38,513 nucleotides of DNA from assembly GCA_902799045.1 (NCBI GenBank), contig CADBZH010000018.1:1-38513 (forward strand). Reading direction: 5' to 3'. A program made the position numbers and the translations under genes. Source of the DNA: an uncultured Eubacteriales bacterium (lineage in GTDB: Bacteria > Bacillota > Clostridia > Christensenellales > Aristaeellaceae). Shown one piece after another: positions 4,024 through 28,574 of the stretch. The notes beneath the pieces are model-generated. The model was not told the DNA's origin and searched no databases. It saw nothing but the letters and a program-made list of their open reading frames with translations. Within the stretch, counting starts at the first letter, position 1, and each line of letters begins with the position of its first letter.

Positions 4024-4147
4024 GCGCGGCAGCAATCGGGGTTGAGCGCCCCGCGCTCAGCGCGGCAACAATCGAGGTTGAGCGCCCCGCGCTCAGCGCG
4101 GCAGCGAATGGGGTTGAGCGCCCTGCGCTCAGCGCGGCAGCAAATGG
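4024..4147. repeat. 36-bp tandem repeat, about 3.4 copies, each with a hairpin
   Basis: Units begin at 4024, 4060, 4096 and 4132 with GCGCGGCAGC or a one-base variant, an exact 36-bp period. Each complete unit contains TGAGCGC and GCGCTCA around a 3-base loop. It starts 10 bp beyond the MATE stop codon and so is transcribed as its 3' untranslated region. The period would encode a 12-residue repeat on the plus strand, but no ribosome site supports translation. Confidence 0.85.
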
Positions 4148-13301: not shown

Positions 13302-13331
13302 ATGAAATCAGTGGAGAAAGGAAGATGCACC

Positions 13332-14879
13332 GTGCGCAAATGGATGGCGCTGCTGCTGGCGCTGGCCCTGGGCGGACTCGCCGCCCACGCCGAGGCAGAC
13401 CCGACCCTCTACCTGTCCGATTTTTCCACCGGCACCGACGGCTGGTACGCCCGCTCGATGGGCCAGGCAGTCGTTTCCGTGGAGGATGGCGCGCTGCGCA
13501 TCGAGGGCTGGACGAACGACTGGAACTCCCCCGGGCGCGATTTCGACCTGATCCCCGGCGGGCGCTATGATTTCAGCGTACAGGTGCGCCAGAACCAGGC
13601 GGACGCGGCGAGCTTCATGGTCTCCGTCGCCCACACCGTGGACGGCGCGGAAAGCTATGAGAACCTGGCCTTTGCCGAGGCGAAGCGCGGGGAATGGACG
13701 GAGCTCTCGGGCACCTATGTCGCCGGGGATTTCAGCCGCTTCGTGCTGTACGTGGAGACCACCGGCGCTCCCGCGCTCGATTTCGACATCCGCGACTTCC
13801 GCCTGGCCGCGCCGGACGGCCTGCCGGACCCCGCGTCGTGGCCGGAGCCCATGGCCATCGAGGCGGTGGAGGACTTGCCCTCGCTGAAGGCGCTCTACGC
13901 GGACGCCTTTGACATCGGCACCTGCGCGGGCGGCTTCATGGCCATGCAGGACGAGCCCATGGCCTTCGTGGAATCCCAGTTCAACATCCTCACGCCGGAG
14001 AATGAATTGAAGCCGGACGCCGTGCTGGACGTGGGCATGAGCCTGGTGGCGGCGATGGAGGACGAGACGGCCGTGGCGGTGCGCTTCAACGCCGCCGAGC
14101 CGATCCTGAACTATGCCCGGGACCACGGCCTGAAGGTGCACGGCCACGTGCTGGTCTGGCACAACCAGACGCCGGACGTGTTCTTCCGCGAGGGCTATCG
14201 CAGCGGCGCGCCGCTGGTGAGCCGCGAGGTGATGCTCGCGCGGCTGGAGAACTACATCCGCCAGATCATGGAATACATGGAGGAGCACTATCCCGGCCTG
14301 ATCGTCAGCTGGGATGTGGTGAACGAGGCCATCGACGATTCCACCGGCGAGCTGCGCGATTCCATGTGGCTGAAGGTGGTGGGGGAGGACTACCTCGCCC
14401 GCGCCTTCGAATTCGCCCGCAAATACGCGCCGGAGGGCACGCTGCTCTACTACAACGACTACAACACCGCCTACCTGAACAAGCAGAACGGCATCGTGAA
14501 GCTGTTGGAGGCGCTGATCGCCGAGGGAAACATCGACGGCTACGGCTTCCAGATGCACCACGCCGTGGCGCAGCCGTCGCTGGCGCAGATCACCGCCTCG
14601 GTGGAGCGGATCGCCCGCCTGGGCCTGCGGCTGAGGGTCAGCGAGCTGGACATCACCGTGGACGACAACAGCGAGGACAGCTTCACCCGCCAGGCACAGC
14701 TCTACGGAGACATCATGCGCCTGCTGCTGGCCCACGCGGACCAGTTCGAGGCCGTGCAGTTCTGGGGCCTGACGGACAACATGAGCTGGCGCGCGTCCCA
14801 GTATCCGCTGCTGTTCGACGCCCATCGCAACCCCAAACCCGCCTTCTGGGCCGTGGCGGACGCCGCCGCGGAGCGATAA
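13332..14879 (+). CDS. Secreted GH10 endo-1,4-beta-xylanase with N-terminal carbohydrate-binding domain
   Basis: Retaining endo-xylanase that cuts the xylan backbone outside the cell. The 515-aa product has a signal peptide (1-21), a beta-sandwich CBM4/9/22-like domain (about 25-160, LYLSDFSTGTDGWYARSMGQ onward) and a GH10 TIM barrel (about 175-512). Hallmarks are LTPENELKPD, VHGHVLVWHNQTP, SWDVVNEAI with acid/base Glu332, YNDYN, LRVSELDI with nucleophile Glu438, and VQFWGLTDNMSWR. I chose the GTG at 13332 because AAAGGAAG lies 7 bases upstream and a signal peptide begins at once; an ATG at 13302 overlaps the preceding terminator. It is followed by the promoter of the transport operon. Confidence 0.95.
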   Translation: MRKWMALLLALALGGLAAHAEADPTLYLSDFSTGTDGWYARSMGQAVVSVEDGALRIEGWTNDWNSPGRDFDLIPGGRYDFSVQVRQNQADAASFMVSVAHTVDGAESYENLAFAEAKRGEWTELSGTYVAGDFSRFVLYVETTGAPALDFDIRDFRLAAPDGLPDPASWPEPMAIEAVEDLPSLKALYADAFDIGTCAGGFMAMQDEPMAFVESQFNILTPENELKPDAVLDVGMSLVAAMEDETAVAVRFNAAEPILNYARDHGLKVHGHVLVWHNQTPDVFFREGYRSGAPLVSREVMLARLENYIRQIMEYMEEHYPGLIVSWDVVNEAIDDSTGELRDSMWLKVVGEDYLARAFEFARKYAPEGTLLYYNDYNTAYLNKQNGIVKLLEALIAEGNIDGYGFQMHHAVAQPSLAQITASVERIARLGLRLRVSELDITVDDNSEDSFTRQAQLYGDIMRLLLAHADQFEAVQFWGLTDNMSWRASQYPLLFDAHRNPKPAFWAVADAAAER

Positions 14880-14902
14880 ATGAGGAAATTGCGCGCTCAT
14901 TC

Positions 14903-14932
14903 TTGACAAAAGCGCTGAAATCAATGTAAAAT
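14903..14932 (+). promoter_or_regulatory. Sigma-A promoter of the transport operon
   Basis: TTGACA (14903-14908), 18 bp, TAAAAT (14927-14932), 23 bp after the xylanase stop. The following seven genes are tightly packed, so this may drive about 12 kb. Confidence 0.8.
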
Positions 14933-14945
14933 TGATGGTGGATAT

Positions 14946-14974
14946 GGCCGAAAACTTTAAAGTTTGTTTCGGCC
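14946..14974 (+). promoter_or_regulatory. Leader hairpin at the head of the transport operon
   Basis: GGCCGAAA (14946-14953) pairs with TTTCGGCC (14967-14974), and the interior ACTTTAAAGT is itself palindromic. It starts about 14 bp after the -10, near the expected transcription start, and could be an operator or an RNA stabiliser. Confidence 0.55.
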
Positions 14975-15014
14975 GGACCGTCTGGTAATAACTGACACCG
15001 AAGGGGTGGACAGA

Positions 15015-17906
15015 TTGCTCAGGAAACTTCGCGGCATATTGATATTCCTGGTGGTGCTGGCGGCGGCGATCGGTGTGATTTCGCTGCTCAACCGCGGCAG
15101 CCAGAGCTTCGAGACAAAATATGAAGGGGCGGACCTGACCGAGGAGGTCACGGGCCTGGAGCGCGGCGACACCTATGACGCCTACCTGCAGGCCCATGCC
15201 GACGCGCCCAATGGCAAAAGCGCCGTGACCGTGGACATCGCCGCCTTTCAGGGCGACGGCGAGCTTTGCGAGGAGGACGGCGCCACCTGCGTCTACGAGC
15301 CGGACGGCTCCACCATCGTCTGGACGGTGAACGTGCCCGAGGCGGGCTTCTACAACCTCCTCATGGACTACAAGACCGTACAGTCCCGCGGCGTGGACAT
15401 GGAGCGCGAGATCCTCATCAACGGCGAGCGCCCCTTCGACGGCGCGGCCACGATCACGTTCTCCCGCCTGTGGACCGATGCCGGCCCCGTTCGCAAGGAC
15501 AACCAGGGCAACGACGTGCGCCCGACCCAGGTGGAGCGCTTTGACTGGCAGCGCAGCTATTGCCGCGACGACATGGGCTATGAGATCGAGCCCTATCGCT
15601 TCTATTTTGAGGCGGGGGAGAACACCCTCGCCCTCCGGGCGGCGAACGAGCCGATGCTGCTGCGCGCCATCGAGCTGACGCCCGTCGGCCAGACGGCCAC
15701 CTATGAGGCCTACAGGGCCGCCCAACCGCAGGGGGAAACCGGCGAAGCGGCGCGGACCTGGCAGACCGTCCTGCAGGGCGAGGACGCCCGACTGCGCTCC
15801 TCCCCGTCGCTGTATGCCCGCTACGACCGGTCCTCGCCGGACACCCGGCCCTACAGCGTCACCAACACCATTCTCAATTACATCGGCGGCGACCCGTGGA
15901 ACAAGGCCGGCCAGTGGATCGAGTGGTCCTTCGAGGTGCCGGAGGACGGCTGGTACACCATCTCGGTGAAGGCCCGCCAGGCCTACCAGCGCGGTGCGGT
16001 GTCCGCCAGAAGCCTGTACATCGACGGCGAGATGCCCTTTGAGGACGTGGCCGCCGTCTCCTTTGGCTACAACACCTCCTGGGAGCTGGTCACCCTGTCC
16101 GACGCCGGGGGCACGCCCTATCAGTTCTACCTGTCCGCCGGCGAACACACCCTGCGCCTGGAGGCCACCCTCGGCCAGATGGGCCCGATCCTCCGCCAGC
16201 TGGAGGACAGCATCTATCGCCTGAACCTGATCTACCGCAAGATCCTGGTGCTGACCGGCGTCAACCCGGACCGCTTCCGCGACTACAACCTGGACAAGAT
16301 CTATCCCGAGGCCATCCGGGCCATGGACGTGGAGAGCAAGCGCCTGTACAAGCTGGTGGACGACACCGTGGCCATCACCGGCCAGAAGAGCGACCGCGTG
16401 GCCGTGGCGCAGACGCTGGCCGTGCAGCTGGAGCAGTTCGTGGAGCACAACGAGCGCATCACCCAGCAGTTCGTCAACTTCAAGGACAACATCACCAGCC
16501 TCGGCACCGCCATGCAGAACATGTCGGAGACGAAGCTGGACGTGGACCTGATCGTGATCTCCGGCGCGGACGCCCCGCTGCCCGGGATCAGCGACGGCTT
16601 CTTCCAGAAGGCGCTGCACGAGGTGCGCTCCTGCGTCGCCTCCTACTTCGTGGACTACAACGCCCTGGGCGACAAGTTCGAGGAGGGCGAGGCCGGCGCG
16701 GACGACCTGATCGAGGTCTGGATCGTCACCGGCCGCGACCAGAGCACCGTTCTGAAGACCATGGTGGACGACACCTTCACCCCGAAGACCGGCATCCGCG
16801 TGAACGTGAAGCTGGTGCTGGCGGAAACGCTGCTCACGGCGGTCGTCGCGGGCAACGGCCCGGACGTGGTGCTGTCGCTGGGCTCCTGGTTCCCGGTGAA
16901 CTACGCCATGCGAAACGCCGTGGAGGACCTGACCCAGTTCGAGGACTTCGATCAGGTGGCCGAGCCGTTCTATGAAAGCGCGTTCACGCCCGTCACCTAC
17001 AACGGCGGCATCTACGCCCTGCCGGAGACCCAGGAGTTCTCGGTGCTGTTCTACCGCAAGGACATCATGGAGGAGCTGGGCCTGACCCCGCCGAACACTT
17101 GGGACGAGCTGATCGCCGAGCTGCCCACCATCCAGGGCAACAACCTGTCCGTGGGCATCCCGTATCCGGACATCTCCAACGTCGACATGTCCGTGTTCAA
17201 CTCGCTGGTCTACCAGCACGGCGGCCAGATCTATGACGAGGAGGCCAAGCGCACGCTGATCGACAACGAGGCGGGCGTGGCGGCGTTCAAGCAGTACACC
17301 TCCTTCTACAACGACTACGGCCTGCCCACCGTGTTCAGCTTCGTCAGCCGCTTCCGCTCCGGCGAGATGCCCATGGGCGTGGCCAGCTACAGCACGTACA
17401 ACACGCTGGCGGTCTCGGCGCCCGAGATCCGCGGCCTGTGGGACTTCACGCTGTTCCCCGGCACGGAGCGCGACGGCAGGCTCGACCGCTCGGTGCACGC
17501 CCAGGGCCTGTGCTGCATGATGATCGCCACCGATGACGAGCGCGTCAAGCGCAATGCCTGGGAGTTCATGAAGTGGTGGGTGAGCACCGAGGCGCAGGTG
17601 CGCTTCGGCCGCGAGATCGAGAGCATCCTCGGCTCCTCCGCCCGCTATGCCACGGCGAACCGCGAGGCGCTGGCGCAGCTGGCGTGGAGCGCCGACGAGC
17701 TGAAGGTGCTCGAGGCGCAGATGGCCGAGACGGTGGGCTTCCGCGAGATCGCGGGCGGCTATTCCACCACGAGGCACATCACCAACGCCATCCGCCGCGT
17801 GATCATCGCCAAGGAGGACCCGCGCGAGACGCTGATGACCTACGCCAAGACGATCAACGACGAGATCCGCGTCAAGCGCCAGGAATTCGGCCTGCCGCTG
17901 GACTGA
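15015..17906 (+). CDS. Giant membrane-anchored ABC solute-binding protein with two carbohydrate-binding-like domains
   Basis: The 963-aa product is far longer than ordinary solute-binding proteins (about 400-450). It has an N-terminal membrane helix (about 8-28) without a lipobox, two beta-sandwich domains (about 45-225 and 250-395, each with WTVNVPEAGFYNLLMDY or WSFEVPEDGWYTISVKA, then YRFYFEAGENTLAL or YQFYLSAGEHTLRL), a helical spacer (400-555) and a C-terminal family 1-type binding domain (about 560-960) with GNGPDVVLSLGSWFPVNYA, YALPETQEFSVLFYRKDIMEELGL and NAWEFMKWWVS. It probably captures oligosaccharides for the permeases that follow. The TTG start follows GGGGTGG by 5 bases; a GTG at 15006 is an alternative. 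Confidence 0.85.
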   Translation: MLRKLRGILIFLVVLAAAIGVISLLNRGSQSFETKYEGADLTEEVTGLERGDTYDAYLQAHADAPNGKSAVTVDIAAFQGDGELCEEDGATCVYEPDGSTIVWTVNVPEAGFYNLLMDYKTVQSRGVDMEREILINGERPFDGAATITFSRLWTDAGPVRKDNQGNDVRPTQVERFDWQRSYCRDDMGYEIEPYRFYFEAGENTLALRAANEPMLLRAIELTPVGQTATYEAYRAAQPQGETGEAARTWQTVLQGEDARLRSSPSLYARYDRSSPDTRPYSVTNTILNYIGGDPWNKAGQWIEWSFEVPEDGWYTISVKARQAYQRGAVSARSLYIDGEMPFEDVAAVSFGYNTSWELVTLSDAGGTPYQFYLSAGEHTLRLEATLGQMGPILRQLEDSIYRLNLIYRKILVLTGVNPDRFRDYNLDKIYPEAIRAMDVESKRLYKLVDDTVAITGQKSDRVAVAQTLAVQLEQFVEHNERITQQFVNFKDNITSLGTAMQNMSETKLDVDLIVISGADAPLPGISDGFFQKALHEVRSCVASYFVDYNALGDKFEEGEAGADDLIEVWIVTGRDQSTVLKTMVDDTFTPKTGIRVNVKLVLAETLLTAVVAGNGPDVVLSLGSWFPVNYAMRNAVEDLTQFEDFDQVAEPFYESAFTPVTYNGGIYALPETQEFSVLFYRKDIMEELGLTPPNTWDELIAELPTIQGNNLSVGIPYPDISNVDMSVFNSLVYQHGGQIYDEEAKRTLIDNEAGVAAFKQYTSFYNDYGLPTVFSFVSRFRSGEMPMGVASYSTYNTLAVSAPEIRGLWDFTLFPGTERDGRLDRSVHAQGLCCMMIATDDERVKRNAWEFMKWWVSTEAQVRFGREIESILGSSARYATANREALAQLAWSADELKVLEAQMAETVGFREIAGGYSTTRHITNAIRRVIIAKEDPRETLMTYAKTINDEIRVKRQEFGLPLD

Positions 17907-17923
17907 CAAGACAACCGACAAGG

Positions 17924-18038
17924 ACAACCCCTCAGTCACCTTTGGTGACAGCTCCCCTTACGCAGGGGAGCCAGGGAGACGGCACATCTGCCTCCCCTGC
18001 GCAAGGGGAGGTGCCGACGAAGTCGGCGGAGGGGTTGT
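17924..18038. mobile_element. Palindromic MITE-like element inside the transport operon
   Basis: Outer inverted repeats ACAACCCCTC and GAGGGGTTGT bound 115 bp containing nested palindromes (GCTCCCCT/AGGGGAGC, CTCCCCTGCG/CGCAAGGGGAG type). There is no coding content. It fills the gap between the solute-binding protein stop and the first permease, and would be transcribed as a structured spacer. Confidence 0.75.
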
Positions 18039-18064
18039 AATCCAGAGTGAAGGAGCGAAGCGCG

Positions 18065-19003
18065 TTGAAATTCTCGATGGGAAAATACATGAAATTGAAG
18101 CAGGACAACTTCCGCTATGGCTGGGACAAGGCCAAGCGCATGAAGGTGTGCTATCTGTTCCTGCTGCCCTACGCGATCCTGTTCTTCGCGTTCTACATCC
18201 TGCCGATCATGACTTCGATGTACTACAGCTTCACCTATTACAACATTCTGGAGCCTCCGAAGTTCATCGGCCTGCAGAACTACATCAACCTGATCCTGCA
18301 GGACCAGGTGTTCCTGACGGCGGTGAAGAACACGTTCGTGATCGCCGTCATCACCGGGCCCATCGGCTACATACTGTCGTTCCTGTTCGCCTGGTTCATC
18401 AACGAGCTGCCGCGCTGGCTGCGCACCATCGCCGTGGTGGTGTTCTACGCGCCGTCCATCGCCGCGAACGCCTTCGTGATCTTCGCCTATATCTTCCAGG
18501 GCGACGTCTACGGCTATCTGAACGCGTTCCTGATGCGGTTCGGCTTCATCGACGGACCGGTGCTGTGGCTCTCGGATCCCAAGACCATCATGCCGGTGCT
18601 GATCGTCGTCATCCTGTGGATGAGCATGGGCACGGGCTTCCTCTCCTTCGTCGCGGGCCTTCAGGGCGTGGACAAGAAGATGTATGAAGCCGGCTACGTG
18701 GACGGCATCCGCAACCGCTGGCAGGAGCTGTACTACATCACGCTGCCGAGCATGAAGCCGATGCTGCTGTTCGGCGCGGTGATGTCCATCACCCAGGCGT
18801 TCAACGTCTGCGACGTGCCCCGGGCGCTGGCGGGCTATCCCAGCACGGACTACGCCGCCCGCACCATCGTCACGCACCTGTTTGACTACGGCTTCTCGCG
18901 GTTTGAAATGGGCTATGCCTCCGCGATCGCCACGGTACTGTTCCTGGTGATGATACTCTGCAACAAGGCCATTCAATCGATGCTGAGGAAGGTGGGCACA
19001 TGA
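18065..19003 (+). CDS. Sugar ABC transporter permease, MalF/LplB type (pair 1)
   Basis: Inner-membrane subunit of a CUT1-type carbohydrate importer. The 312-aa product has six membrane helices beginning VCYLFLLPYAILFFAFYILPIMTSMYYSFTYYN, a classic start for this family, and the ATPase-docking EAA loop EAGYVDGIRNRWQELYYITLPSM. The start is uncertain: TTG at 18065 has AAGGAG 9 bases upstream; GTG at 18047 or ATG at 18077 are possible. It overlaps the next permease by 4 bp (ATGA). No ATP-binding subunit is encoded in the window. Confidence 0.9.
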   Translation: MKFSMGKYMKLKQDNFRYGWDKAKRMKVCYLFLLPYAILFFAFYILPIMTSMYYSFTYYNILEPPKFIGLQNYINLILQDQVFLTAVKNTFVIAVITGPIGYILSFLFAWFINELPRWLRTIAVVVFYAPSIAANAFVIFAYIFQGDVYGYLNAFLMRFGFIDGPVLWLSDPKTIMPVLIVVILWMSMGTGFLSFVAGLQGVDKKMYEAGYVDGIRNRWQELYYITLPSMKPMLLFGAVMSITQAFNVCDVPRALAGYPSTDYAARTIVTHLFDYGFSRFEMGYASAIATVLFLVMILCNKAIQSMLRKVGT

Positions 19004-20163
19004 GCGCGAAGTACGGCAACAAATCCATCGCCCCCGTCGACACGGTGGTGATCGAACAGCCGCAGAAGCTGAGCCGCGGGCGCTTCGCGGTGGTCGCGCT
19101 GATCGTGGCCGCCCTGCTGGCGGCGGTGATCGTGGCCGCCGGCCTGCGCATGGACGCGCTGGACGCCATGATGCTCCAGGTGGAGGAGGGCGCCCTCGAG
19201 CAGGAGGCCCTTCCGGCGGACGCGCCCTATCTGGTGTTCTACCGGGTGGGCCGGGCGCTGGCCATCGGGGTGCTGGCGGTGTTCGCGATCTACGCGATCA
19301 TCCGGATCATCGATCCCAAGCGCCGCCGCCCCAACCGCAGCGTCTGGGGCGATATCGGCGTGTACCTGCTGCTGGCCATCGTGGCCGTGGCCATGGTGTT
19401 CCCGCTGGTGTTCTCGGTGGCCGCGTCGCTGAAGCCGCTGGACGAGCTGTTCCGCTTCCCGCCGCGGGTGTTCCCGCAGCACGTGACGCTGGACAACTAT
19501 TCCGACCTGTTCGTCACGCTGAGCCAGAGCTGGGTGCCCTTCTCCCGCTACCTGGTGAACACGGTGCTGATCACGTTCGTCGGCACGGCGGGCCATCTGG
19601 TGGTGGCGTCGATGGCGGCGTTCGTGCTGGCGAAGTATGACTTCCCCGGCGGCAGGCTGTTCTTCAGCATCGTCGTCACGGCGCTGATGTTCTCCGGCTA
19701 CGTCACCGGCATCCCGAACTACATCATCATGAGCCGCCTGAAGATGATCGACACCCACTGGGCCGTGATCCTGCCGGCCTTCGCCGCGCCCATCGGCCTG
19801 TTCCTGATGAAGCAGTTTATGGAGGGCATTCCCACGGCGCTGATCGAGGCCGCGCACATCGACGGCGCGGGCGAGTTCCGGATCTTTTGGACCATCATCA
19901 TGCCCGTCGTGAAGCCAGCGTGGCTGACGATGATCATCTTCTCGGTGCAGAACCTGTGGAACGCCAACGCGGCCACGGTGATCTATTCCGAATCCAAGAA
20001 GACCCTGGTCTACGCGCTGCAGCAGATCCAGGCGGGCGGCGTGGCCCGCCAGGGCCAGGCCGCGGCGGTCACGGTCATCATCATGCTGGTGCCCATCGCC
20101 ATATTCATCGCCAGCCAGAACCAGATCCTGGAGACGATGGCGAGTTCGGGCCTGAAGGATTAG
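19000..20163 (+). CDS. Carbohydrate ABC transporter permease, MalG type, with extended N-terminus (pair 1)
   Basis: Partner of the preceding permease. The 387-aa length exceeds the usual 275-300 because about 110 extra residues precede the standard domain: a membrane helix (FAVVALIVAALLAAVIVAAG), an acidic loop containing LQVEEGALEQEALPADAP, and a second helix (LAIGVLAVFAIYAIIRII). The standard domain then follows (VYLLLAIVAVAMVFPLVFSVAASLKP) with EAA loop EAAHIDGAGEFRIFWTIIMP and ends with six helices in all. The ATG overlaps the previous stop. The extension is not a frameshift artefact, since the frame is open and continuous. Confidence 0.9.
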   Translation: MSAKYGNKSIAPVDTVVIEQPQKLSRGRFAVVALIVAALLAAVIVAAGLRMDALDAMMLQVEEGALEQEALPADAPYLVFYRVGRALAIGVLAVFAIYAIIRIIDPKRRRPNRSVWGDIGVYLLLAIVAVAMVFPLVFSVAASLKPLDELFRFPPRVFPQHVTLDNYSDLFVTLSQSWVPFSRYLVNTVLITFVGTAGHLVVASMAAFVLAKYDFPGGRLFFSIVVTALMFSGYVTGIPNYIIMSRLKMIDTHWAVILPAFAAPIGLFLMKQFMEGIPTALIEAAHIDGAGEFRIFWTIIMPVVKPAWLTMIIFSVQNLWNANAATVIYSESKKTLVYALQQIQAGGVARQGQAAAVTVIIMLVPIAIFIASQNQILETMASSGLKD

Positions 20164-20180
20164 CTGGGGGGGATCGAGCC

Positions 20181-21698
20181 ATGAAAGCATTGCCGGGGCT
20201 GCTGGCGCTGTTGCTGGCGCTGATGCTGCTTTCGCCGATGACGGCGCTGGCGGCGAACGACGGCTTTTCAGCGGTCTATACCTATAACTACGATTACTGG
20301 GGCGAGATTCGGGAATCCCCGAACGCCTATCGCGCCGACCAGGTGGTCTTCTCGGGCACGCTGGGGCTGGAGACGCCCATGAGGAAGCCCCAGAGCCTGT
20401 ACGTCCGGGGCGAGGATGTGTACGTTTGCGACACCGGCAACAACCGCATCCTCCAGCTGCATCGCCAGGACGGCGCGTTCACCCTCACGCGGATCATCGA
20501 CGCCGCGGCGGGCGCGGAGCCGGAGGGCTTCGACGCGCCCAGCGACGTGTTCGTGGCGGAGGACGGCGCCCTCTACGTGGCCGACACCAACCACAACCGC
20601 GTGGTGATGATGGACCGGGACCTGAACTTCGTGCGCGAATACGTCAAGCCCGTCGACGCAACCTTCGAGCAGAACCTGAGCTTCCTGCCCAACAAGATCG
20701 TGGTGGACACCGCCGGCCGCGTGTACGTGCTGTCCACGAACGTGAACAAGGGCCTGGTGAAGTATGAGGCCGACGGCACGTTCACCGGCTTCATCGGCGC
20801 GAACAAGGTCAAGTATGACCTGTGGGACTACATCTGGAAGGCGTTCCTCTCCACGCGGGAGCAGCGCGCCCAGCAGGCATCCTTCGTGCCGACCGAATAC
20901 GAAAACATCTGCATCGACGCCGAGGGCTTCATCTATGCCACGAACGCCGTCTTCAGCGAATACGACCTGAAGAGCGACGTGGCCAAGCCCATCCGCCGCC
21001 TGAACGGCATCGGCAACGACATCCTCATCAAAAACGGCAAGTATCCGCCTATCGGCGACCTGCTCTGGGTGGAGGGCTCGCTGGACTACGGCCCCTCGAA
21101 ATTCAAGGACATCACTGTGCTGGACGACGACATCTACGTGGCCGTGGACCGCACCCACGGCAGGCTCTTCGGCTATGACGCGCAGGGTATCCTGCTTTGG
21201 GCCTTCGGCACCAAGGGCAACCACGTGGGCGCGTTCCTCTCGGCGGTCTCCGTCGAGCACATGGGCAGGGACCTGATGGTGCTGGACGAGGATGAGTGCA
21301 GCATCACCGTGTTCACGCCCACCGACTACGGCAACCTGATCTACCGGGCCAACGACGAATACCTGCGCGGCCTGTACGACGCCTCCGCCGATACCTGGCG
21401 CGAGGTGATGCGCATGAACGCCAACTACGATCCGGCCTTTATCGGCATCGGGCGGGCGCTGCTGCGCGAGGAGAACTACGCCGAGGCCATGGAGTACTTC
21501 AAGATGGCCCACGACCGGGTGAACTACGGCCGGGCCTATCGCTACTACCGCAAGGAGAGCGCGGAGAGATCCATCGGCTGGATCGTCGCGGTGATCGCCG
21601 CGCTGCTGATCGTGCCGCTCGTCCTCGGGCGGATCAAGAAGATGAAAATGGAGGTGGAGGCGGATGAACGCAGAAGGGCTGCGGGCTTCAAGCCCTGA
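20181..21698 (+). CDS. Membrane-anchored NHL-repeat beta-propeller with TPR-like segment
   Basis: The 505-aa product has a signal peptide (1-25), about five or six NHL-type blades (about 60-395; repeated patterns PQSLYVRGEDVYVCDTGNNRI, PSDVFVAEDGALYVADTNHNR and NKIVVDTAGRVYVLS), a TPR-like helical segment (about 410-460, LLREENYAEAMEYFKMAHDR) and a C-terminal membrane helix (about 464-482) with a charged cytoplasmic tail. It is therefore an extracytoplasmic propeller tethered to the membrane, suited to protein or glycan binding; no catalytic residues are evident. The ATG at 20181 is preceded by GGGGGGAT. It overlaps the next gene by 35 bp. Confidence 0.85.
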   Translation: MKALPGLLALLLALMLLSPMTALAANDGFSAVYTYNYDYWGEIRESPNAYRADQVVFSGTLGLETPMRKPQSLYVRGEDVYVCDTGNNRILQLHRQDGAFTLTRIIDAAAGAEPEGFDAPSDVFVAEDGALYVADTNHNRVVMMDRDLNFVREYVKPVDATFEQNLSFLPNKIVVDTAGRVYVLSTNVNKGLVKYEADGTFTGFIGANKVKYDLWDYIWKAFLSTREQRAQQASFVPTEYENICIDAEGFIYATNAVFSEYDLKSDVAKPIRRLNGIGNDILIKNGKYPPIGDLLWVEGSLDYGPSKFKDITVLDDDIYVAVDRTHGRLFGYDAQGILLWAFGTKGNHVGAFLSAVSVEHMGRDLMVLDEDECSITVFTPTDYGNLIYRANDEYLRGLYDASADTWREVMRMNANYDPAFIGIGRALLREENYAEAMEYFKMAHDRVNYGRAYRYYRKESAERSIGWIVAVIAALLIVPLVLGRIKKMKMEVEADERRRAAGFKP

Positions 21699-22350
21699 TT
21701 CGACGGGCAGCACCGGGGGCTGGAAGCGCTACCTGTCGACGCTGAAGTATGGCACCTATGTCATCTTTCACCCCTTTGACGGCTTCTGGGACCTGAGCCA
21801 CGAAAGGCGCGGCTCGCTGGCGGCGGCGCATACGTTTCTGGCGCTGTTCCTGCTGACGTATGTGCTCAGGCTGATGTGCACGAACTTCCAGTTCATCAGC
21901 GCGCCGCTGCAATACATCAACATCTACGAGCAGTGCGCCTCGCTGCTGATCCCGTTCCTGGTGCTGTGCGTGGCGAACTGGGGCCTTTCCACGCTGTTCG
22001 ACGGCAAGGGCCGCTTCAGGGACATCTACATGGCGATGTGCTACGCGCTGCTGCCGTACATCCTGATCCAGCTGCCGCTGGTGCTGATCAGCCACGTGAT
22101 CTCGTTTGACGAGTACGCCTACTACACGGTGCTGGCCGGCATCTCGGTGCTCTGGTGCGTGGCGCTGGCGTTCGTGGGCCTGATGGAGGTGCACGACTAC
22201 AGCGCCGGCAAGACCGTCGTATTCGTCATCGCCACCGTCTTCGGCGCGATGGTGATCCTGTTCCTGGTGCTGGTATTCTTCAGCCTGCTGAGCGACGCGG
22301 TGGGATACTTCGTGTCCCTGTACCGCGAGGTCGTGTTCAGGCTGTATTAG
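21664..22350 (+). CDS. Yip1-like multi-spanning membrane protein
   Basis: The 228-aa product has a short hydrophilic N-terminus and about five membrane helices. GTYVIFHPFDGFWDLSHERRGS is typical of bacterial YIP1-domain proteins, followed by a helix ending in LCVANWGLSTLFDGKGRFRDIYMAMCYALLPYI, where the LF-G-G--R-IY----YALLP pattern is the family signature. Bacterial members have no established function. Its start lies inside the propeller gene after GGAGG, which indicates translational coupling and roughly matched amounts of the two proteins. Confidence 0.85.
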   Translation: MNAEGLRASSPDSTGSTGGWKRYLSTLKYGTYVIFHPFDGFWDLSHERRGSLAAAHTFLALFLLTYVLRLMCTNFQFISAPLQYINIYEQCASLLIPFLVLCVANWGLSTLFDGKGRFRDIYMAMCYALLPYILIQLPLVLISHVISFDEYAYYTVLAGISVLWCVALAFVGLMEVHDYSAGKTVVFVIATVFGAMVILFLVLVFFSLLSDAVGYFVSLYREVVFRLY

Positions 22351-22364
22351 GGAGGGGAGAGACA

Positions 22365-24938
22365 ATGCGAAAGAAGAGCGTTTGGCTGCGCCTGCTCCCC
22401 TGGCTGATCGCGCTGGCCGCCGTCGCGGCGCTGGTGATCTTCGTGGGCATCCCCCTCTACGCGCCCCAGCAGGAGGAGGAAGTGGCGCCCCCGGTGATCG
22501 CCTACTACGAGGACGGCAAACAGACCCTGACGCTGGAGAACGACGCGCTGCTTTTTGAGCTGGACGGTGAGACGACGGCCTTCGCCGTCACCGAGAAGGC
22601 CAGCGGCCGGGTGTGGCGCTCCAACCCCGAGGACGCCGACCAGGACCGGATGGCCGTGTCCACCAACAAGGACATGCTGAAATCCACCCTGGTGGTGACC
22701 TATTCCTCCGCCAGCGGCGTCATCGACTTCAACAACTACGCCTTCTCCATCCAGAACGGCAGCTACACCGTCTCCCAGCCCGATCCGGACACGGTGAGCG
22801 TCACCTATGCCGTGGGCAAGATCGAGAAGGTCTACCTGATCCCCAGCGCCATCACCGTTGAGCGCTTCACGGCTTTCACCGACGCCATGAGCAAGAAGGA
22901 CGCCAAGAAGGTCAAGGGCGTGTACACCTTGTACAAGCCCGAGAAGGTGCAGGCGGCGGACAACCGGGACGAGCTGCTGGCGCTGTATCCGTCGCTGGAG
23001 ACCCAGGAGCTGTACGTCCTCAAGAGCGACGCCTCCGAGAGCAACAAGGCCAAGACCGCCGGCTACTTCGAGGCCGCGGGCTACACCCAGGAGGACTATG
23101 AGCTGGACCAGCAGCTGGTGGCGGGCAGCAGCAAGAATACCGGCCCGGTGTTCAACATCACGGTGAACTATCGCCTCGACGGCGGCGACCTGCTGGTGGA
23201 GGTGCCCTATCCGGAGATCCGCTACCGGTCGGACTATCCGATCACCTATCTCACCGTGCTGCCGATGTTCGGCGCGGCGGGGCTGGACGACGAGGGCTTC
23301 ATGCTGATCCCCGAGGGCGGCGGCGCCCTGATCCACTACAACAACGGCAAGCTGAACCAGAACAGCTACTACGCCAACATGTACGGCTGGGACTACGGCT
23401 CCGAGCGCAAGGAGGCCGTCAGCGAGACCGAGAACGCCTTCCCCGTGTTTGGCATGACCCGGGACGGCGGATCCTTCATCTGCGTGATGGAGGGCGCGCC
23501 CTCCTACGGCGGCGTCCAGGCGGACATCAGCCTGCGCTACAACAGCTACAACTGGGTCTGCGCCAAGTACAACGTGCTGCACAGCGACCAGTACAATGTC
23601 TCCGCCAAGACGGCGCGGCTGGTCTACATGTTCGAGAAGGAGATGCCCCAGGATGCCATCCTGCAGCGCTATCGCTTCATCGACAGCGACGATTACGCCG
23701 ACATGGCCGCGGCCTACGGCGACTACCTGCGCCAGCGCAGCCCGGAATTCGCCGAAAAGCAGGCCTCCGAGGCAATGCCCGTTTCGGTGGAGCTGCTGGG
23801 CGCGTTCGACAAAAAGGTCGTGAAGCTGGGCATGCCGGTGGATTCCGTCATCGCCGCCACCACCTTTGACGACGCCGCGGCCATCGCCGGGGAGCTGGCG
23901 GACGCCGGCGTCGGGGGTCTCAACCTGCGCTTCTCCGGCTGGTGCAACGGCGGCGTGAACCAGAAGGTGCTCACCCGGGTGAGCGTCCTCCAGCAGCTGG
24001 GCGGCAAGGCCGGCATGAAGCGGCTGATCGAGGCCGCGAAGCAGCGGGGCGTGGAGCTCTATTTCGACGGCATCGGCTGCTTCGCCTATCGCAGCGGCCT
24101 GTTCCAGGGCTTCCTGCCCTTCCGGGACGCGGCGCGGTTCACCACGCTGGAGCAGGTGAAGATCTATCCCTATTCGCCGATCTTCTACCAGCAGGACGAT
24201 TTCTACGATCCCTTCTACCTGGTGGAGCCGCGCTATGCGAAGCAGTGCCAGGAGAACCTGGTGAAGGCCCTGGCGGACTACGGCGCCGGGGGCGTGGCGT
24301 TCCGCGACATCGGCAGCATCCTCTCCGGCAACTACAATCCCAAGAACACCACCACCCGCGAGCAGGTGCTGCAGATGAACCTGGAGACGCTCGCCGGGGC
24401 GAGGGCGGCGGGGGAAAAGGTGATGCTGAAGCGCGGGTATGACTACGCGCTGCCCTACGCCGATTTGATCACCGACATGAACCTGCAGGGCACCGACTAT
24501 TCCATCATTGACCGGAACGTGCCCTTTTACCAGATCGCCATCCACGGCTCGGTGGACTACACCGGCCAGCCGATCAACCTGACCGACGACTGGGAGACGG
24601 AGCTGCTGCGCTGCGCGGAATACGGCGCCGGGCTGAACTTCACGTTCATGGCCGACGAGACCCAGGAGCTGCAGGATTCCCTGTATTCCGGCTACTACGG
24701 CGCGTCCTGGGACGCCTGGCGCGACACCGCGACGGCGATGATCACCGCCTACCAGAAGGACATGGCGGGCCTGAACCGGGCGCGGATCGTGGGGCACGAG
24801 GAAATCGCCGAGGGCGTCACCGCCACCACCTTTGAGGGCGGACGGCGGGTGCTTGTGAACTACACCGAACAGGATTGCGACGCGGGCGGCGTCACCGTAC
24901 CGGCCCGCAGCTACCGCGTGACGGGAGGGGATCGATAA
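22365..24938 (+). CDS. DUF5696 membrane-anchored protein, possible glycoside hydrolase-like TIM barrel
   Basis: The 857-aa product has one N-terminal membrane helix (about 9-31), a large beta-rich region (about 45-465; YYEDGKQTLTLENDALLFEL then GRVWRSNPEDAD) and an alpha/beta region (about 475-790) that reads like a TIM barrel: VELYFDGIGCF (Asp568), GVAFRDIGSILSGNY (Asp648) and YADLITDMNLQGTDYSI. It closes with a small beta domain. The architecture resembles retaining glycosidases such as the alpha-galactosidase clan, but I cannot assign catalytic residues with certainty. DUF5696 is an assignment from recalled features. The ATG follows GGAGGGGAG and sits 14 bp after the Yip1 gene. Confidence 0.8.
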   Translation: MRKKSVWLRLLPWLIALAAVAALVIFVGIPLYAPQQEEEVAPPVIAYYEDGKQTLTLENDALLFELDGETTAFAVTEKASGRVWRSNPEDADQDRMAVSTNKDMLKSTLVVTYSSASGVIDFNNYAFSIQNGSYTVSQPDPDTVSVTYAVGKIEKVYLIPSAITVERFTAFTDAMSKKDAKKVKGVYTLYKPEKVQAADNRDELLALYPSLETQELYVLKSDASESNKAKTAGYFEAAGYTQEDYELDQQLVAGSSKNTGPVFNITVNYRLDGGDLLVEVPYPEIRYRSDYPITYLTVLPMFGAAGLDDEGFMLIPEGGGALIHYNNGKLNQNSYYANMYGWDYGSERKEAVSETENAFPVFGMTRDGGSFICVMEGAPSYGGVQADISLRYNSYNWVCAKYNVLHSDQYNVSAKTARLVYMFEKEMPQDAILQRYRFIDSDDYADMAAAYGDYLRQRSPEFAEKQASEAMPVSVELLGAFDKKVVKLGMPVDSVIAATTFDDAAAIAGELADAGVGGLNLRFSGWCNGGVNQKVLTRVSVLQQLGGKAGMKRLIEAAKQRGVELYFDGIGCFAYRSGLFQGFLPFRDAARFTTLEQVKIYPYSPIFYQQDDFYDPFYLVEPRYAKQCQENLVKALADYGAGGVAFRDIGSILSGNYNPKNTTTREQVLQMNLETLAGARAAGEKVMLKRGYDYALPYADLITDMNLQGTDYSIIDRNVPFYQIAIHGSVDYTGQPINLTDDWETELLRCAEYGAGLNFTFMADETQELQDSLYSGYYGASWDAWRDTATAMITAYQKDMAGLNRARIVGHEEIAEGVTATTFEGGRRVLVNYTEQDCDAGGVTVPARSYRVTGGDR

Positions 24939-25925
24939 ATGGCCGCAAAAAAACTCTCCGCGCCCAAGCCCGGCAAGTGGAGCCTGCGGGAGGGGCTTCT
25001 GACGTTCATCCCCGGAAACGCCACCTTCCGGTCCATGCGCTCCAGAAAGGCGCGCACGGGCGTGCTGTTCATCCTGCCGTTCATCATCGGCTTCCTGGTG
25101 TTCATGGTGCAGCCGCTGTTCCAGTCGCTGTCCATGAGCATGAGCAACGTGCAGCTGAAGAGCGGCGAGGGCTATTCCCAGGTGTTCACGGGCTTCGCGA
25201 ACTACAAGTACGCCCTGGGCGTCGATCCCTATTTCAACCAGTATCTGGTGCAGGAGATCGGCCGCATGGCCGTGAACGTGCTGGCGACGCTGGCGCTGAG
25301 CTTCGTGGTGGCGGTGCTGCTGAACCAGAAGTTCAAGGGCAGGACCCTGGTGCGCGCCATCTTCTTCCTGCCGGTCATCCTCTCCTCGGGCGTGCTGCCG
25401 GGCATCGAATCGCAGAACGAGTTCTACAACATGATGCAGGGCATCTCCCAGGAGGTGGCCAACGCCTCGGGCGTGAACCTGTCGGCGGCGCTGCAGGACC
25501 TGCTGAGCGTCTCCGGCGTGGGCGGCGGCCTGTTTGACATACTGTTCCAGATGATCGACTCCATCTATGATATCGTGATGGCCAGCGGAATCCAGATCAT
25601 CGTGTTCCTCACGGGCTTTGCCGGCATTTCGCCCTCGCTGTACGAGGCGGCGAACGTGGAAGGCTGCACCGGCTGGGAGGCCTTCTGGAAGATCACCTTC
25701 CCGATGGTCAGCCCGCTGCTGCTGGTGAACTGCATCTACACGATCATCGACTTCTTCATGAAGAACGACAACCGGGTGATGGAGCGCATCAACGATGTCA
25801 TGTACAGCCAGTTCCGCTTCGGCGAGAGCGCGGCCATGAGCTGGATCTACTTCGGGGTGGCGCTGCTGTTCATCGGCATAAGCACCTTGATCATCTCCAG
25901 GGGGGTGCACTACTATGAAGAGTAA
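24939..25925 (+). CDS. Sugar ABC transporter permease, MalF/LacF type (pair 2)
   Basis: The 328-aa product begins with about 45 hydrophilic residues and continues with TGVLFILPFIIGFLVFMVQPLFQSLSMSMS, the family start, a periplasmic-facing region and EAA loop EAANVEGCTGWEAFWKITFPM. Six membrane helices are expected. The segment about 165-195 (FYNMMQGISQEVANASGVNLSAALQDLL) is an inserted extracytoplasmic loop. Its ATG directly abuts the DUF5696 stop (TAAATG), and it overlaps the next gene by 11 bp, so these genes are one operon. Confidence 0.9.
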   Translation: MAAKKLSAPKPGKWSLREGLLTFIPGNATFRSMRSRKARTGVLFILPFIIGFLVFMVQPLFQSLSMSMSNVQLKSGEGYSQVFTGFANYKYALGVDPYFNQYLVQEIGRMAVNVLATLALSFVVAVLLNQKFKGRTLVRAIFFLPVILSSGVLPGIESQNEFYNMMQGISQEVANASGVNLSAALQDLLSVSGVGGGLFDILFQMIDSIYDIVMASGIQIIVFLTGFAGISPSLYEAANVEGCTGWEAFWKITFPMVSPLLLVNCIYTIIDFFMKNDNRVMERINDVMYSQFRFGESAAMSWIYFGVALLFIGISTLIISRGVHYYEE

Positions 25926-26922
25926 GCCCGCGAAGGACACCGAGCGCAGGAGCTTTTTCCAGCTCAACCGCGCCAGCGGCGGCGCGCTGCTGCGCAACGC
26001 CGCCAAGAAGTGGACCGTCTCCATCGTGAGGGGCCTGCTGCTGTTCGGCCTGTGCTTCATGATCATCCAGCCGATGCTGACCCGCCTGGGCACTAGCCTG
26101 ATGGCGGAGAAGGACCTGTACGATTCCACGGTGGTGCTGCTGCCCCGCACGCCCACGCTGGAAAACTATCGCATCGTGTTCGACCTGACGGACTTTCCCC
26201 GGTCGATGCTGAACACGCTGTGGACGAGCTTTGTGGTGTCGCTGCTGCAGGTGGCGGCCTGCACGCTGGTGGCCTACGGCTTTGCGAGGTACGACTTCCC
26301 GCTGAAGAAGTTCTGGTTCGCCTGCGTGGTGGCGCTGATCGTCATCCCGCCGCAGACCATCGCCACGGCGCTGTACATGAACTTCGCCAACTTCGACATC
26401 CTGGGCCTCTTCAAGCGCTTCACGGGCAAGACCGTCCGGCTCCACGGCTCCTTCGCCCCCTACGCGCTGATGAGCGTCACCTGCATGGGCCTGAAGGACG
26501 GCCTGTACATCTACATGCTGCGCCAATACTTCCGCAGCGTGCCGAAGTCGCTGGAGGAGGCGGCCTACATGGACGGCTGCAACACGCTGCACACCTTCGT
26601 GCGCATCATGCTGCCGGACGCCATGCCGGTCATCCTCAGCTGCTTCCTGTTCTCCTTCGTCTGGCAGTGGACGGATCTGTTCTACACCCGCAACTTCCTG
26701 TCGAGCATGTCCATCTACTCCACCCAGCTTTCCACCATCGTCTCCCGCATGAGCCGCTACTTCGCCAGCGATCCCAACTCGCCGGTGGTGGTGCCGGTGG
26801 GCCGCCAGCAGCAGCTGATCTCCATCGGCGTACTGGTGTGCTGCGTGCCGCTGATCGTGCTGTACGTGTTCACCCAGAAGACCTTCGTGCAGAGCATCGT
26901 GATGACGGGCAGCAAGGAGTAG
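25915..26922 (+). CDS. Carbohydrate ABC transporter permease, MalG type (pair 2)
   Basis: Partner of the preceding permease; 335 aa. The N-terminal cytoplasmic part is followed by a first helix (GLLLFGLCFMIIQPMLTRLG), and the core contains NTLWTSFVVSLLQVAACTLVAYGFARYDFP, then YIYMLRQYFRSVPKSLEEAAYMDGCNTLHTFVRIMLPDAMP, which includes the EAA loop. Its start lies inside the preceding gene after GGGGGG. Pair 2 differs clearly from pair 1, so this is not a recent duplication. It ends the operon; no strong terminator follows, only a heptamer repeat. Confidence 0.92.
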   Translation: MKSKPAKDTERRSFFQLNRASGGALLRNAAKKWTVSIVRGLLLFGLCFMIIQPMLTRLGTSLMAEKDLYDSTVVLLPRTPTLENYRIVFDLTDFPRSMLNTLWTSFVVSLLQVAACTLVAYGFARYDFPLKKFWFACVVALIVIPPQTIATALYMNFANFDILGLFKRFTGKTVRLHGSFAPYALMSVTCMGLKDGLYIYMLRQYFRSVPKSLEEAAYMDGCNTLHTFVRIMLPDAMPVILSCFLFSFVWQWTDLFYTRNFLSSMSIYSTQLSTIVSRMSRYFASDPNSPVVVPVGRQQQLISIGVLVCCVPLIVLYVFTQKTFVQSIVMTGSKE

Positions 26923-26926
26923 AATC

Positions 26927-26984
26927 AGGGATCAGGGAGTAGGGAGTAGGGAGTAGGGAGTAGGGAGTAGGGAGTAGGGAGTAG
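26927..26984. repeat. Heptanucleotide tandem repeat (AGGGAGT)n
   Basis: About seven perfect head-to-tail copies of AGGGAGT (26934-26983) begin 11 bp after the last permease stop and are preceded by the degenerate copy ATCAGGGATC. A related CTCC-rich degenerate stretch occurs at about 353-405. Slippage is likely; no function is evident. Confidence 0.85.
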
Positions 26985-27099
26985 GAACAGTGGCTGCCGC
27001 GTTTTTGACCTTCCCCTCCGGGAAAGATGGCCTGAAGGGGCGGATGAGGTCGGTTTCCTGCATAGCAAATGATGATGCCCTGAAGCCGCAAATCTGCCC

Positions 27100-27127
27100 T
27101 TGCGTTTTTCTGTAAATGTGGTATAAT
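27100..27127 (+). promoter_or_regulatory. Extended -10 promoter of the second solute-binding protein gene
   Basis: TATAAT (27122-27127) is preceded by TGG (27119-27121), an extended -10; a partial -35 TTGCGT lies at 27100-27105 with a 16-bp spacer. Confidence 0.75.
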
Positions 27128-27135
27128 GGAATTAA

Positions 27136-27149
27136 CGTAAACGTTTTCG
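27136..27149. promoter_or_regulatory. LacI/GalR-type operator overlapping the transcription start
   Basis: The 14-bp CGTAAACGTTTTCG is a near-perfect dyad centred on CG with an AAACGTTT core, the usual look of LacI-family and CcpA sites. It begins 8 bp after the -10, so a bound repressor would block initiation. No LacI gene is in the window. Confidence 0.65.
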
Positions 27150-27215
27150 AACGCCAACCGTGAAACTGTGCGCCCGATGGCGTGTAGCGATAATTATTTT
27201 CAGGAGGGAAGGAAC

Positions 27216-28574
27216 ATGAAGAAACTGCTGGCTATGATTCTGGCGGCGCTGATGCTGCTGGCCTGTACCGCGGCGTTCGCGGAAGAGGCGGAGTACCCCG
27301 AGGTCGTTGAAGGCATCGACTTTGGCGGCGCGGACGTTTATATTTACGACTATTGGACGCCCACCGAGGAGCGCCAGGCCGAGCCCAGCGAGGAGACCCA
27401 GGCTCAGTACGACTATCGCGACTGGATCATGGAGACCTACAACGTGAAAATCCACCAGATCCAGAAGGGCGACTGGACGACCAACGTCCAGGAGCTGACC
27501 AACTTCTGCACCGCGCCGGACGGCACCCTGTGCCTGTACATCCTGCCCCCGGACTTCGTGGGCACCCCCATGGCCAACGATCTGTTTGCCGCCTGGAACG
27601 GCCGCGACCTGATCGACCTGTCCGACGAGCAGTGGAACCAGGCCACCATCAACTTCATGACCGTGAACGGCAACGTCTACGGCGTGTCCACCGGCCATTC
27701 CGAGCCCCGTCACTGCCTGTACTTCAACAAGCGCGTCCTGGAGGAGGCCGGCATCGATTGGAACACCATCTATGACATGCAGGCCGACGGCACCTGGACC
27801 TTTGACGCCTTCGAGACCATGCTCAAGCAGATCCAGAAGGACACCGACAACGACGGCGTCATCGACATCTACGGCATGACCGGCAGCAACGTGGACATGT
27901 ACCGCGTGGCCGTGTTCTCCAACGGCGGCAGCTTCTTCGACTTTGACGACGAGGGCAAGATGGTCATCGCCGCCGGCAGCGACAACACCCTGGAAGCCCT
28001 GGCCTGGGCCAAGGACGTGTGGAACACCTACGGCTATCAGCAGCCCGCGGACGGCTCCTGGGATTACTACAAGGAAGCCTGGAAGCAGGGCTTCTGCGGC
28101 TTCTACATGTATCAGACCTACGGCGGCTTCAACCCCATCGAGACCAACGAGATGCTGGACATGGCCGACGAGTGGGGCTGCGTGGCCTTCCCCGTGGGCC
28201 CGAAGGGCACGACCTACACCAACGTCGTCAGCGACAACGTGACCGTCATCCCCAACGTGTATGACGACGACACCGTGAACAAGCTGGCCTTCATCTACAA
28301 GCTGTGGTCTGCTCAGACCCCCGGCTACGATGACGAGGACGGCTGGATCGGCGACAAGTACAACTTCACCGACGACCGCGCCGTGGACGAGACCTACGCC
28401 ATGCTTCGCGAGCCGGAGCATTGCTCCTCCGACATCTGCCTGTACATCGGCTCCATCAACGATGTCGAGGGCCAGGACTTCCTGTGGAACCTGGGCGGCA
28501 GCACCCCGGCCGAGCTGGTCGAGGCCAAGACGCCGGTCTGGCAGGCCCTGATCGACACCTTCAACGGCAAGTAA
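27216..28574 (+). CDS. Extracellular ABC solute-binding protein (sugar type)
   Basis: The 452-aa product is a standard-length family 1 binding protein. The signal region MKKLLAMILAALMLLACTAAFAEE ends either in a weak lipobox (LLAC, Cys18) or at a signal peptidase I site (AFA-EE), so lipidation is unsure. Recognisable parts are VYGVSTGHSEPRHCLYFNKRVLEEAGID, TWTFDAFETMLKQIQKDTDNDGVIDIYG and the NVVSDNVTVIPNVYDDD region. It lacks a dedicated permease downstream and may feed permease pair 2 just upstream. The ATG at 27216 follows AGGAGGGAAGG. Its own promoter and operator allow sugar-specific control. Confidence 0.9.
   Translation: MKKLLAMILAALMLLACTAAFAEEAEYPEVVEGIDFGGADVYIYDYWTPTEERQAEPSEETQAQYDYRDWIMETYNVKIHQIQKGDWTTNVQELTNFCTAPDGTLCLYILPPDFVGTPMANDLFAAWNGRDLIDLSDEQWNQATINFMTVNGNVYGVSTGHSEPRHCLYFNKRVLEEAGIDWNTIYDMQADGTWTFDAFETMLKQIQKDTDNDGVIDIYGMTGSNVDMYRVAVFSNGGSFFDFDDEGKMVIAAGSDNTLEALAWAKDVWNTYGYQQPADGSWDYYKEAWKQGFCGFYMYQTYGGFNPIETNEMLDMADEWGCVAFPVGPKGTTYTNVVSDNVTVIPNVYDDDTVNKLAFIYKLWSAQTPGYDDEDGWIGDKYNFTDDRAVDETYAMLREPEHCSSDICLYIGSINDVEGQDFLWNLGGSTPAELVEAKTPVWQALIDTFNGK

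Follow-up and report, generated by a model that had tools for sequence, protein, structure and literature searches.

We analysed a 38,513-nucleotide stretch of DNA from an uncultured Eubacteriales bacterium (contig CADBZH010000018.1, hereafter the window), and find in it what is probably a conserved cassette for importing plant-type oligosaccharides, a reading to which we assign a probability of roughly 0.6 and in which capture, docking and import are predicted from sequence. The cassette consists of eight + strand genes (15015-26922) downstream of a promoter-like site, arranged as a membrane-anchored giant solute-binding protein, a first pair of ATP-binding cassette (ABC) permeases (pair 1, 1A and 1B), an NHL beta-propeller protein, a Yip1 protein, a DUF5696 protein and a second permease pair (pair 2, 2A and 2B), each with a Pfam match over cut-off. 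A glycoside hydrolase (GH) family 10 gene lies upstream, and genes for a smaller second solute-binding protein (SBP2) and a GH5 enzyme lie downstream, all on the same strand. The shared strand and the gene order had been given in a preliminary description of the locus and are borne out for every gene it named; its observations as a whole hold up, with corrections to the gene count (eight rather than seven), to start positions and to one gap.

The evidence that carries this reading is the conservation of gene order across 136 loci—the window, 55 neighbourhoods from phylum genomes and 80 named loci from Paenibacillus, Cohnella, Thermobacillus xylanilyticus, Gracilibacillus, Lachnospiraceae and other Clostridia or Bacillota assemblies—which together encode 132 distinct DUF5696 proteins. 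The named loci are the best 80 of 581 confirmed, which biases them towards relatives of the search alignment, and several loci come from one genome or one genus. Counting by domain envelopes in the 121 distinct loci with enough sequence on both flanks, we found NHL and Yip1 immediately 5' of DUF5696 in 120 (in the lone exception, L107, both are present with broken frames) and a permease pair immediately 3' of DUF5696 in 117, an order kept so widely that it rules out chance or an annotation artefact. The preliminary description had proposed seeking the NHL-Yip1-DUF5696 order beside permeases in other genomes, where it turns out to be a fixed cassette, and had counted against its own view a trio found mostly away from permeases, which is not what occurs. 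Its picture of a conserved, apparently undescribed membrane-bound unit linked to permeases is thus supported at 117/121 loci.

The two permease pairs, which that description had placed on either side of the trio, are by position not equal partners: the trio abuts pair 2. The giant binding protein and pair 1 lie immediately 5' of NHL in 93 of the 109 loci for which 8 kb upstream was available; the other 16 all carry a fused NHL-Yip1, and in six of them (L056, L064, L068, L070, L077 and L081) the giant binding protein and pair 1 are found further downstream in the same stretch. Because of these 16 loci, we take NHL-Yip1, DUF5696 and permease pair 2 to be the tightest unit, judged by gene order; by the same measure, the giant binding protein with pair 1 is a close but movable partner of the trio. 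SBP2 is found near the cassette in 99 of the 110 loci with a long upstream flank.

Next, we considered how the components are distributed among genomes. DUF5696 (PF18952) was detected in 52 of 398 phylum genomes at E <= 0.001, with strong matches (E below 1e-90) in 41, the window's genome included, and weak partial matches in the other 11; five weak matches that we checked were two DUF6259 proteins, one GH129 protein and two alpha-amylase-family proteins. In reverse searches, whose genome lists were compared by eye, an NHL-subfamily profile matched 42/398 genomes at E <= 1e-30, namely the 41 with strong DUF5696 and G223, where the match is partial (model positions 4-186 of 457). With a profile built for the giant binding protein, 48/398 genomes were matched at E <= 1e-60: those 41 genomes and seven others, of which five match partially (G075 from position 433 on; G007, G050, G087 and G116 over the solute-binding half only). 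Together, the 117/121 permease-linked loci and the 41/42 NHL-subfamily genomes with strong DUF5696 rule out that the trio are general membrane proteins unrelated to transport. As far as sequence can tell, these comparisons demonstrate that the cassette genes are inherited as a block, in line with the distance matrices of nine proteins, which correlate at 0.84-0.96 over 94 loci. The eight genes are, by substitution rates, under purifying selection within the genus: the ratio of nonsynonymous to synonymous substitution rates (dN/dS) stays under 0.4 throughout 16 comparisons with two same-genus relatives, with dN 0.14 and dS 0.35-0.56 for DUF5696. Some genomes hold at least three copies of the cassette. 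Among 72,556 plasmid records, two carry DUF5696, and in both the whole cassette sits on a large plasmid (L203, Butyrivibrio fibrisolvens pNP243; L204, Paenibacillus cellulosilyticus).

Within the trio, NHL and Yip1 form a single open frame in 48/120 loci (34/55 in the phylum sample), which argues that the two behave as one protein even where, as in the window, they are separately encoded. The window NHL protein has a signal or transmembrane helix, TPR-like helices and a C-terminal transmembrane helix (transmembrane-like stretches at residues 7-25 and 465-483), and the window Yip1 protein matches its family profile (PF04893) over cut-off and has five transmembrane-like helices. An AlphaFold model of a natural fusion (L040; predicted local distance difference test score, pLDDT, 89.5), built from an alignment of the 48 fusions, consists of a signal helix, the propeller, TPR-like helices, a long helix and the helical Yip1 part. 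Most of the 50 Foldseek matches listed for this model are propellers, TRIM NHL domains and designed Pizza proteins among them, and give no particular clue to the ligand; as the matches align about 310-395 columns, they are also uninformative on whether Yip1 has a known transporter fold.

For DUF5696, both modelling and profile comparison point to the glycosidase family GH129. An AlphaFold model built from a 52-member alignment (mean pLDDT 87.9) matched GH129 structures first in a Foldseek search of the PDB (5opq, 8rzk, 5wzr and 5wzn; best E 1.9e-34, target-normalised TM 0.70), followed by GH101 and then GH36-type enzymes, so that the ectodomain has, in its predicted structure, a GH129 fold. 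A DUF5696 profile run against PDB sequences found 8rzg (E 1.1e-13) and 5wzq (7e-9). A further protein (L201), whose genome belongs to the same order, matches the GH129 alpha-N-acetylgalactosaminidase NagBb at 648 bits and exceeds both the GH129 and the DUF5696 cut-off in Pfam. In hhalign it aligned with DUF5696 at probability 99 and E 1.1e-18 (5.7e-18 with another alignment); this protein was used as the catalytic-site template in place of GH101, whose alignment was too weak (hhalign probability 6-8). The Pfam GH129 profile itself gave no match to the window DUF5696 protein at E 0.01, and its 0/299 result in the phylum was run without a control and is no evidence of absence; L201 and L177, fetched later, match it over cut-off. 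The L201 gene (L201:6148-8025) is one of two NagBb-like genes about 20 kb apart in that genome, the other (L202:6583-8472) encoding a protein 46% identical to it, and the fetched stretches around them hold no permease of this cassette type. Both proteins pass the Pfam DUF5696 cut-off, which hence fails to separate the two families.

With residue numbers that count from codon 22362, a codon ahead of the likely start, window D649 aligns with NagBb D435 and window K690 with NagBb E478 in both hhalign alignments, positions that we take to be the catalytic nucleophile and the acid/base, respectively; this mapping comes from a profile alignment with about 16% identity rather than from superposed structures, which counts against the reading. 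The nucleophile position is Asp in 87 of the 132 DUF5696 members and the acid/base position is Glu in 37, with both acids present in only 27, and the combination of D and K is shared by all five same-genus copies (the window and four relatives, the latter read by eye). Other positions are nearly constant (W527 in 129, R666 in 127, E753 in 125, D717 in 119 and N739 in all 132 members), and two conserved ones differ in the window, D657 (124/132; Asn in the window) and N693 (126/132; Tyr in the window). A conserved surface alongside a varying catalytic pair is what would be expected of a receptor derived from an enzyme. These comparisons establish DUF5696, at the level of profiles and alignments, as a remote GH129 homologue whose catalytic pair is mostly degenerate, and because its acid/base position is a lysine, the window protein is probably a tethered glycan-binding receptor rather than a hydrolase. 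The processing of oligosaccharides that the preliminary description had allowed for the trio is, for the same reason, unlikely in the window DUF5696 protein. Lipobox-like cysteines were seen by eye near the N-terminus of some members (L034, L075 and L076), so that different anchors may preserve surface tethering.

The same residues bear on an alternative in which DUF5696 would belong to a new GH129-like family of active glycosidases, removing side chains at the membrane ahead of import, with the lysine reflecting a different mechanism. Fold and homology (Foldseek, hhalign), the aspartate at the nucleophile position in the window and in 87 members, the 27 members with both acids and the strong conservation of W527, R666, E753 and N739 are all compatible with an enzyme. 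Set against these, no acidic pair is conserved family-wide, the five same-genus proteins have lysine where only 37 members have glutamate, and at three of the four His/Asp positions that distinguish NagBb from its quadruple mutant—the three that we checked—at least 112 of the 132 members each have other residues. We consider an active enzyme unlikely as an account of the family, if far from implausible, and the 27 proteins with both acids, which include Paenibacillus and Thermobacillus xylanilyticus copies, may be active, a point that counts against a purely receptor-like family.

Import is favoured over export by the presence of two binding proteins together with EAA-type motifs in the predicted permeases; export or envelope assembly is disfavoured on the same grounds. 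Across 94 loci, a loose EAA pattern was found in 94 copies of permease 1A, 94 of 1B, 76 of 2A and 89 of 2B, and a stricter one in 92, 92, 73 and 37, respectively. On inspection by eye, we dropped the idea that permease 2A has a special extracellular loop. None of the eight cassette genes encodes an ATPase by Pfam, and elsewhere in the genome four MalK-type ATPase genes exceed the OB_MalK cut-off; in the 13 kb fetched around one of them, on contig C2, no permease was matched, so that this gene is apparently an orphan. In the P. cellulosilyticus plasmid copy, a UgpC-type ATPase gene (ugpC) lies directly upstream. According to PMC7658222, ATPases shared by several importers (MsmX, MsmK) are established in Bacillota. 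The system thereby resembles shared-ATPase carbohydrate importers of the CUT1 type, with a binding protein, a BPD_transp_1 permease pair bearing the EAA motif and a MalK-type ATPase encoded elsewhere rather than with the permeases. It differs from them in having two permease pairs per operon and a 963-residue membrane-anchored binding protein, and in keeping NHL, Yip1 and DUF5696 in nearly every copy.

An alternative would make the trio a surface sensor or scaffold, NHL-Yip1 and DUF5696 reporting glycan binding while the permease pairs merely supply ligand. Regulators of the GntR/LacI and AraC types and YesM-type kinases do recur beside the cassette, which speaks for this view, but they are encoded separately, no kinase or receiver domain was matched in the trio by Pfam, and the near-invariant neighbour is a permease pair (117/121), so that we regard a signalling role as improbable.

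A glycan substrate for the importer is suggested by the neighbourhood. After clustering the flanking frames, we used Pfam to annotate one representative per cluster for 20 recurrent clusters: nine are glycoside hydrolases (a GH43 with beta-xylosidase C domain, another GH43, GH26, GH30, GH3, GH31, GH38, GH95 and an alpha-L-fucosidase), four are regulators (a GntR/LacI type, two AraC types and a YesM-type kinase), and others comprise two esterases, a solute-binding protein, an ABC exporter, Gfo/Idh/MocA and SDR dehydrogenases and a ricin-type lectin. By number of loci, the GntR/LacI type (35), an AraC type (27) and a GH43 (21) come first among the clusters. Of the elements that together characterise a Gram-positive polysaccharide utilisation locus (glycoside hydrolase, transporter and regulator), the window itself holds glycoside hydrolases and the transporter; the regulators recur at other loci, and the window was not specifically searched for one. 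GH5 follows SBP2 in both of the other same-genus cassettes that reach that far, and of the 38 GH10 genes counted in 13 genomes, 9 are no more than 10 kb away from a DUF5696 gene against 0.44 expected, an upper view of the enrichment since these genomes were hand-picked, with GH10 already known to be nearby in some. The glycan context suggested by the preliminary description is thus upheld by the recurrent hydrolases and regulators, and its xylan or glucan substrate fits this locus and about a fifth of loci (GH10 in 26/136); there are other loci whose enzymes relate to mannan or fucose. From gene content, we consider the cassette substrates likely to be plant glycans that differ between copies, with xylan or beta-glucan the likely substrate at this locus. 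That description's interpretation is partly supported: the conserved permease-linked unit and its glycan setting stand, and what needs revising is the equal standing of the two permease pairs, the view of NHL and Yip1 as two proteins, the processing role for the window DUF5696 and the reach of the xylan/glucan substrate.

Several observations weigh against an importer cassette for plant glycans as we propose it. The count by frame overlap, which the domain-envelope count replaced, was lower (NHL and Yip1 in 112/120, the permease pair in 114/120); SBP2 was not found in 11 of the 110 loci with a long upstream flank; and in two of the extra genomes of the reverse search (G098 and G140) the giant binding protein is present at full length although DUF5696 has no strong match. 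The correlations between the protein distance matrices also contain the species tree, that is, shared ancestry, and in the window's genus DUF5696 occurs in just 5 of 25 genomes, several of the assemblies being incomplete, a patchy and accessory trait. On textbook grounds the trio is dispensable for import, because classical binding proteins are usually near both permease pairs. Finally, GH10 is present in the fetched stretch of only those 26 loci (6/55 in the phylum sample), and the P. cellulosilyticus plasmid copy lies amid LLM flavin-dependent oxidoreductases rather than glycosidases, such that the substrate may not always be a glycan. These last facts, along with permease matches to NCBIfam models that fall below cut-off and include non-sugar families, would suit a general importer of large solutes, non-glycan or modified in some hosts, for which glycan links are common but not defining; we give this little credence in view of the nine hydrolase and four regulator clusters and of the sugar-binding proteins that are the giant binding protein's best NCBIfam matches, all below curated cut-offs.

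For the importer cassette that we favour, the following sequence of events can be envisaged. Extracellular endo-enzymes such as GH10 and GH5 would cut the polymer, and the tethered giant binding protein and tethered DUF5696 ectodomain would catch the fragments, the window DUF5696 most likely acting as a binding and not a cutting protein. Anchored through its own helix and the five-helix Yip1 domain, the NHL propeller would organise the receptor above permease pair 2, or alternatively hand substrate between the receptors and SBP2. Both permease pairs would then import, powered by a shared MalK/MsmX-type ATPase encoded elsewhere. Both uptake and the physical assembly of the membrane proteins are here inferences from gene content.

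As a transporter the cassette is of a known kind, and what is new is the set of three accessory subunits and the doubled permease pair. GH129 glycosidases (NagBb, 5wzn; the 3,6-anhydro-D-galactosidase ZgGH129, 5opq/8rzk) share with DUF5696 the ectodomain fold, sequence homology and, in the window, the nucleophile aspartate, and differ from it in that DUF5696 has a membrane anchor, a lysine in the window for the acid/base glutamate, an intact pair in 27/132 members only and a fixed place in a transporter operon. In Bacteroidota, SusCD systems place tethered surface receptors beside an import channel and endo-glycanases; the likeness to our ABC-type cassette of Bacillota is a functional analogy alone. 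We advance only tentatively, as a proposal we would not yet bet on, that the cassette represents a new Gram-positive importer class: a multi-part surface capture machine, parallel to SusCD in function, in which a tethered and catalytically dead glycosidase (DUF5696) that evolved from a GH129-type enzyme would serve as glycan receptor, with an obligatory NHL-Yip1 subunit, docked on a dedicated permease pair. In the open-licence literature we found no mention of DUF5696 and, in titles and the beginnings of abstracts, no treatment of the cassette or its gene order. If these readings are true, importers of Paenibacillus, Cohnella, Butyrivibrio, other Lachnospiraceae and Clostridia would gain three conserved subunits that nobody has assigned, DUF5696 and this bacterial Yip1 protein would receive their first role, and a clear case of a glycosidase turned receptor would be at hand, as would a marker cassette for predicting which plant glycans its carriers—many soil and gut bacteria—take up.

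Table 1. Features of the importer locus. Coordinates are window positions; all genes are on the + strand.
Feature	Position	Strand	Basis or remark
Sigma-70-type promoter-like site, TTGACA-18-TAAAAT	14903..14932	+	11/12 matches; pattern only
GH10 endo-xylanase-type gene, direct upstream neighbour	13302..14879	+	PF00331 over cut-off at 13881-14864
Giant extracellular solute-binding protein, 963 amino acids	15015..17906	+	SBP_bac_8 93 bits; SBP_bac_1 also over cut-off
Repeat element, long hairpin	17924..18038	+	Between giant binding protein and permease 1A
ABC permease 1A	18065..19003	+	BPD_transp_1 48.8 bits
ABC permease 1B	19000..20163	+	BPD_transp_1 49.6 bits
NHL beta-propeller protein	20181..21698	+	Pfam NHL 42.1 bits
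Yip1 protein, five transmembrane-like helices	21664..22350	+	Pfam Yip1 (PF04893) 60.5 bits, cut-off 28.6
DUF5696 protein, N-terminal membrane anchor and GH129-like ectodomain	22365..24938	+	Pfam 628 bits, profile 2-612/612
ABC permease 2A	24939..25925	+	BPD_transp_1 28.6 bits, cut-off 26.4
ABC permease 2B	25915..26922	+	BPD_transp_1 52.9 bits
Terminator-like hairpin and T run, 3' of operon	27087..27104	+	Pattern only
SBP2, smaller second solute-binding protein, lipobox-like N-terminus	27216..28574	+	SBP_bac_1 21.9 bits, below cut-off 26
GH5 family glycoside hydrolase	28949..30133	+	Pfam Cellulase 209 bits

The giant binding protein has an N-terminal membrane helix (transmembrane-like at residues 7-25), a C-terminal solute-binding domain and a weak CBM35-like stretch below cut-off. 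Its longest frame begins at 14964, and a Shine-Dalgarno-like GAAGGGG precedes the TTG at 15015; from such positions, the likely starts are TTG 15015 for this protein, TTG 18065 for permease 1A and ATG 22365 for DUF5696. With the last of these, the intergenic gaps from permease 1A onward are -4, 17, -35, 14, 0 and -11 bases, so that the genes mostly overlap or abut, as the preliminary description had it, except at the one wide gap in the cassette, 158 bases between the giant binding protein and permease 1A. The repeat element inside this gap gave 26 match rows at about 22 places in its own genome (its own copy included), folds with a minimum free energy of -79 kcal/mol (z -7.3) and was not seen in the two same-genus cassettes that span the junction; it may determine how much binding protein is made relative to permease.

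The single promoter that had been placed ahead of the genes is present as a sequence pattern, its activity being predicted only: it is the best of five promoter-like sites on both strands of 13500-28500, compared with a mean of 2.4 in shuffled sequence. A break in transcription between the permease pairs, which the preliminary description had named as evidence that would speak against it, is not indicated, as a pattern scan found no + strand terminator-like site between them; besides the hairpin 3' of the operon, a further terminator-like site lies within the last permease gene (26656-26675). A search against Rfam placed no family above threshold in the window. Just 3' of the operon, at about 26934-26985, a short tandem array of the 7-base unit GGGAGTA was read by eye. 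Upstream of SBP2 we observed, also by eye, an extended -10 promoter-like TGGTATAAT at 27119-27127, and a palindrome-like GTAAACGTTTTCG in 27100-27160 that resembles a LacI-family operator; because these two elements precede SBP2, they suggest that it has its own promoter and is regulated apart from the eight-gene operon. Far upstream, at 202-726 and 3593-4045, frames with near-identical peptides (GEPDC-VASL-AMT) look like a dispersed repeat rather than genes.

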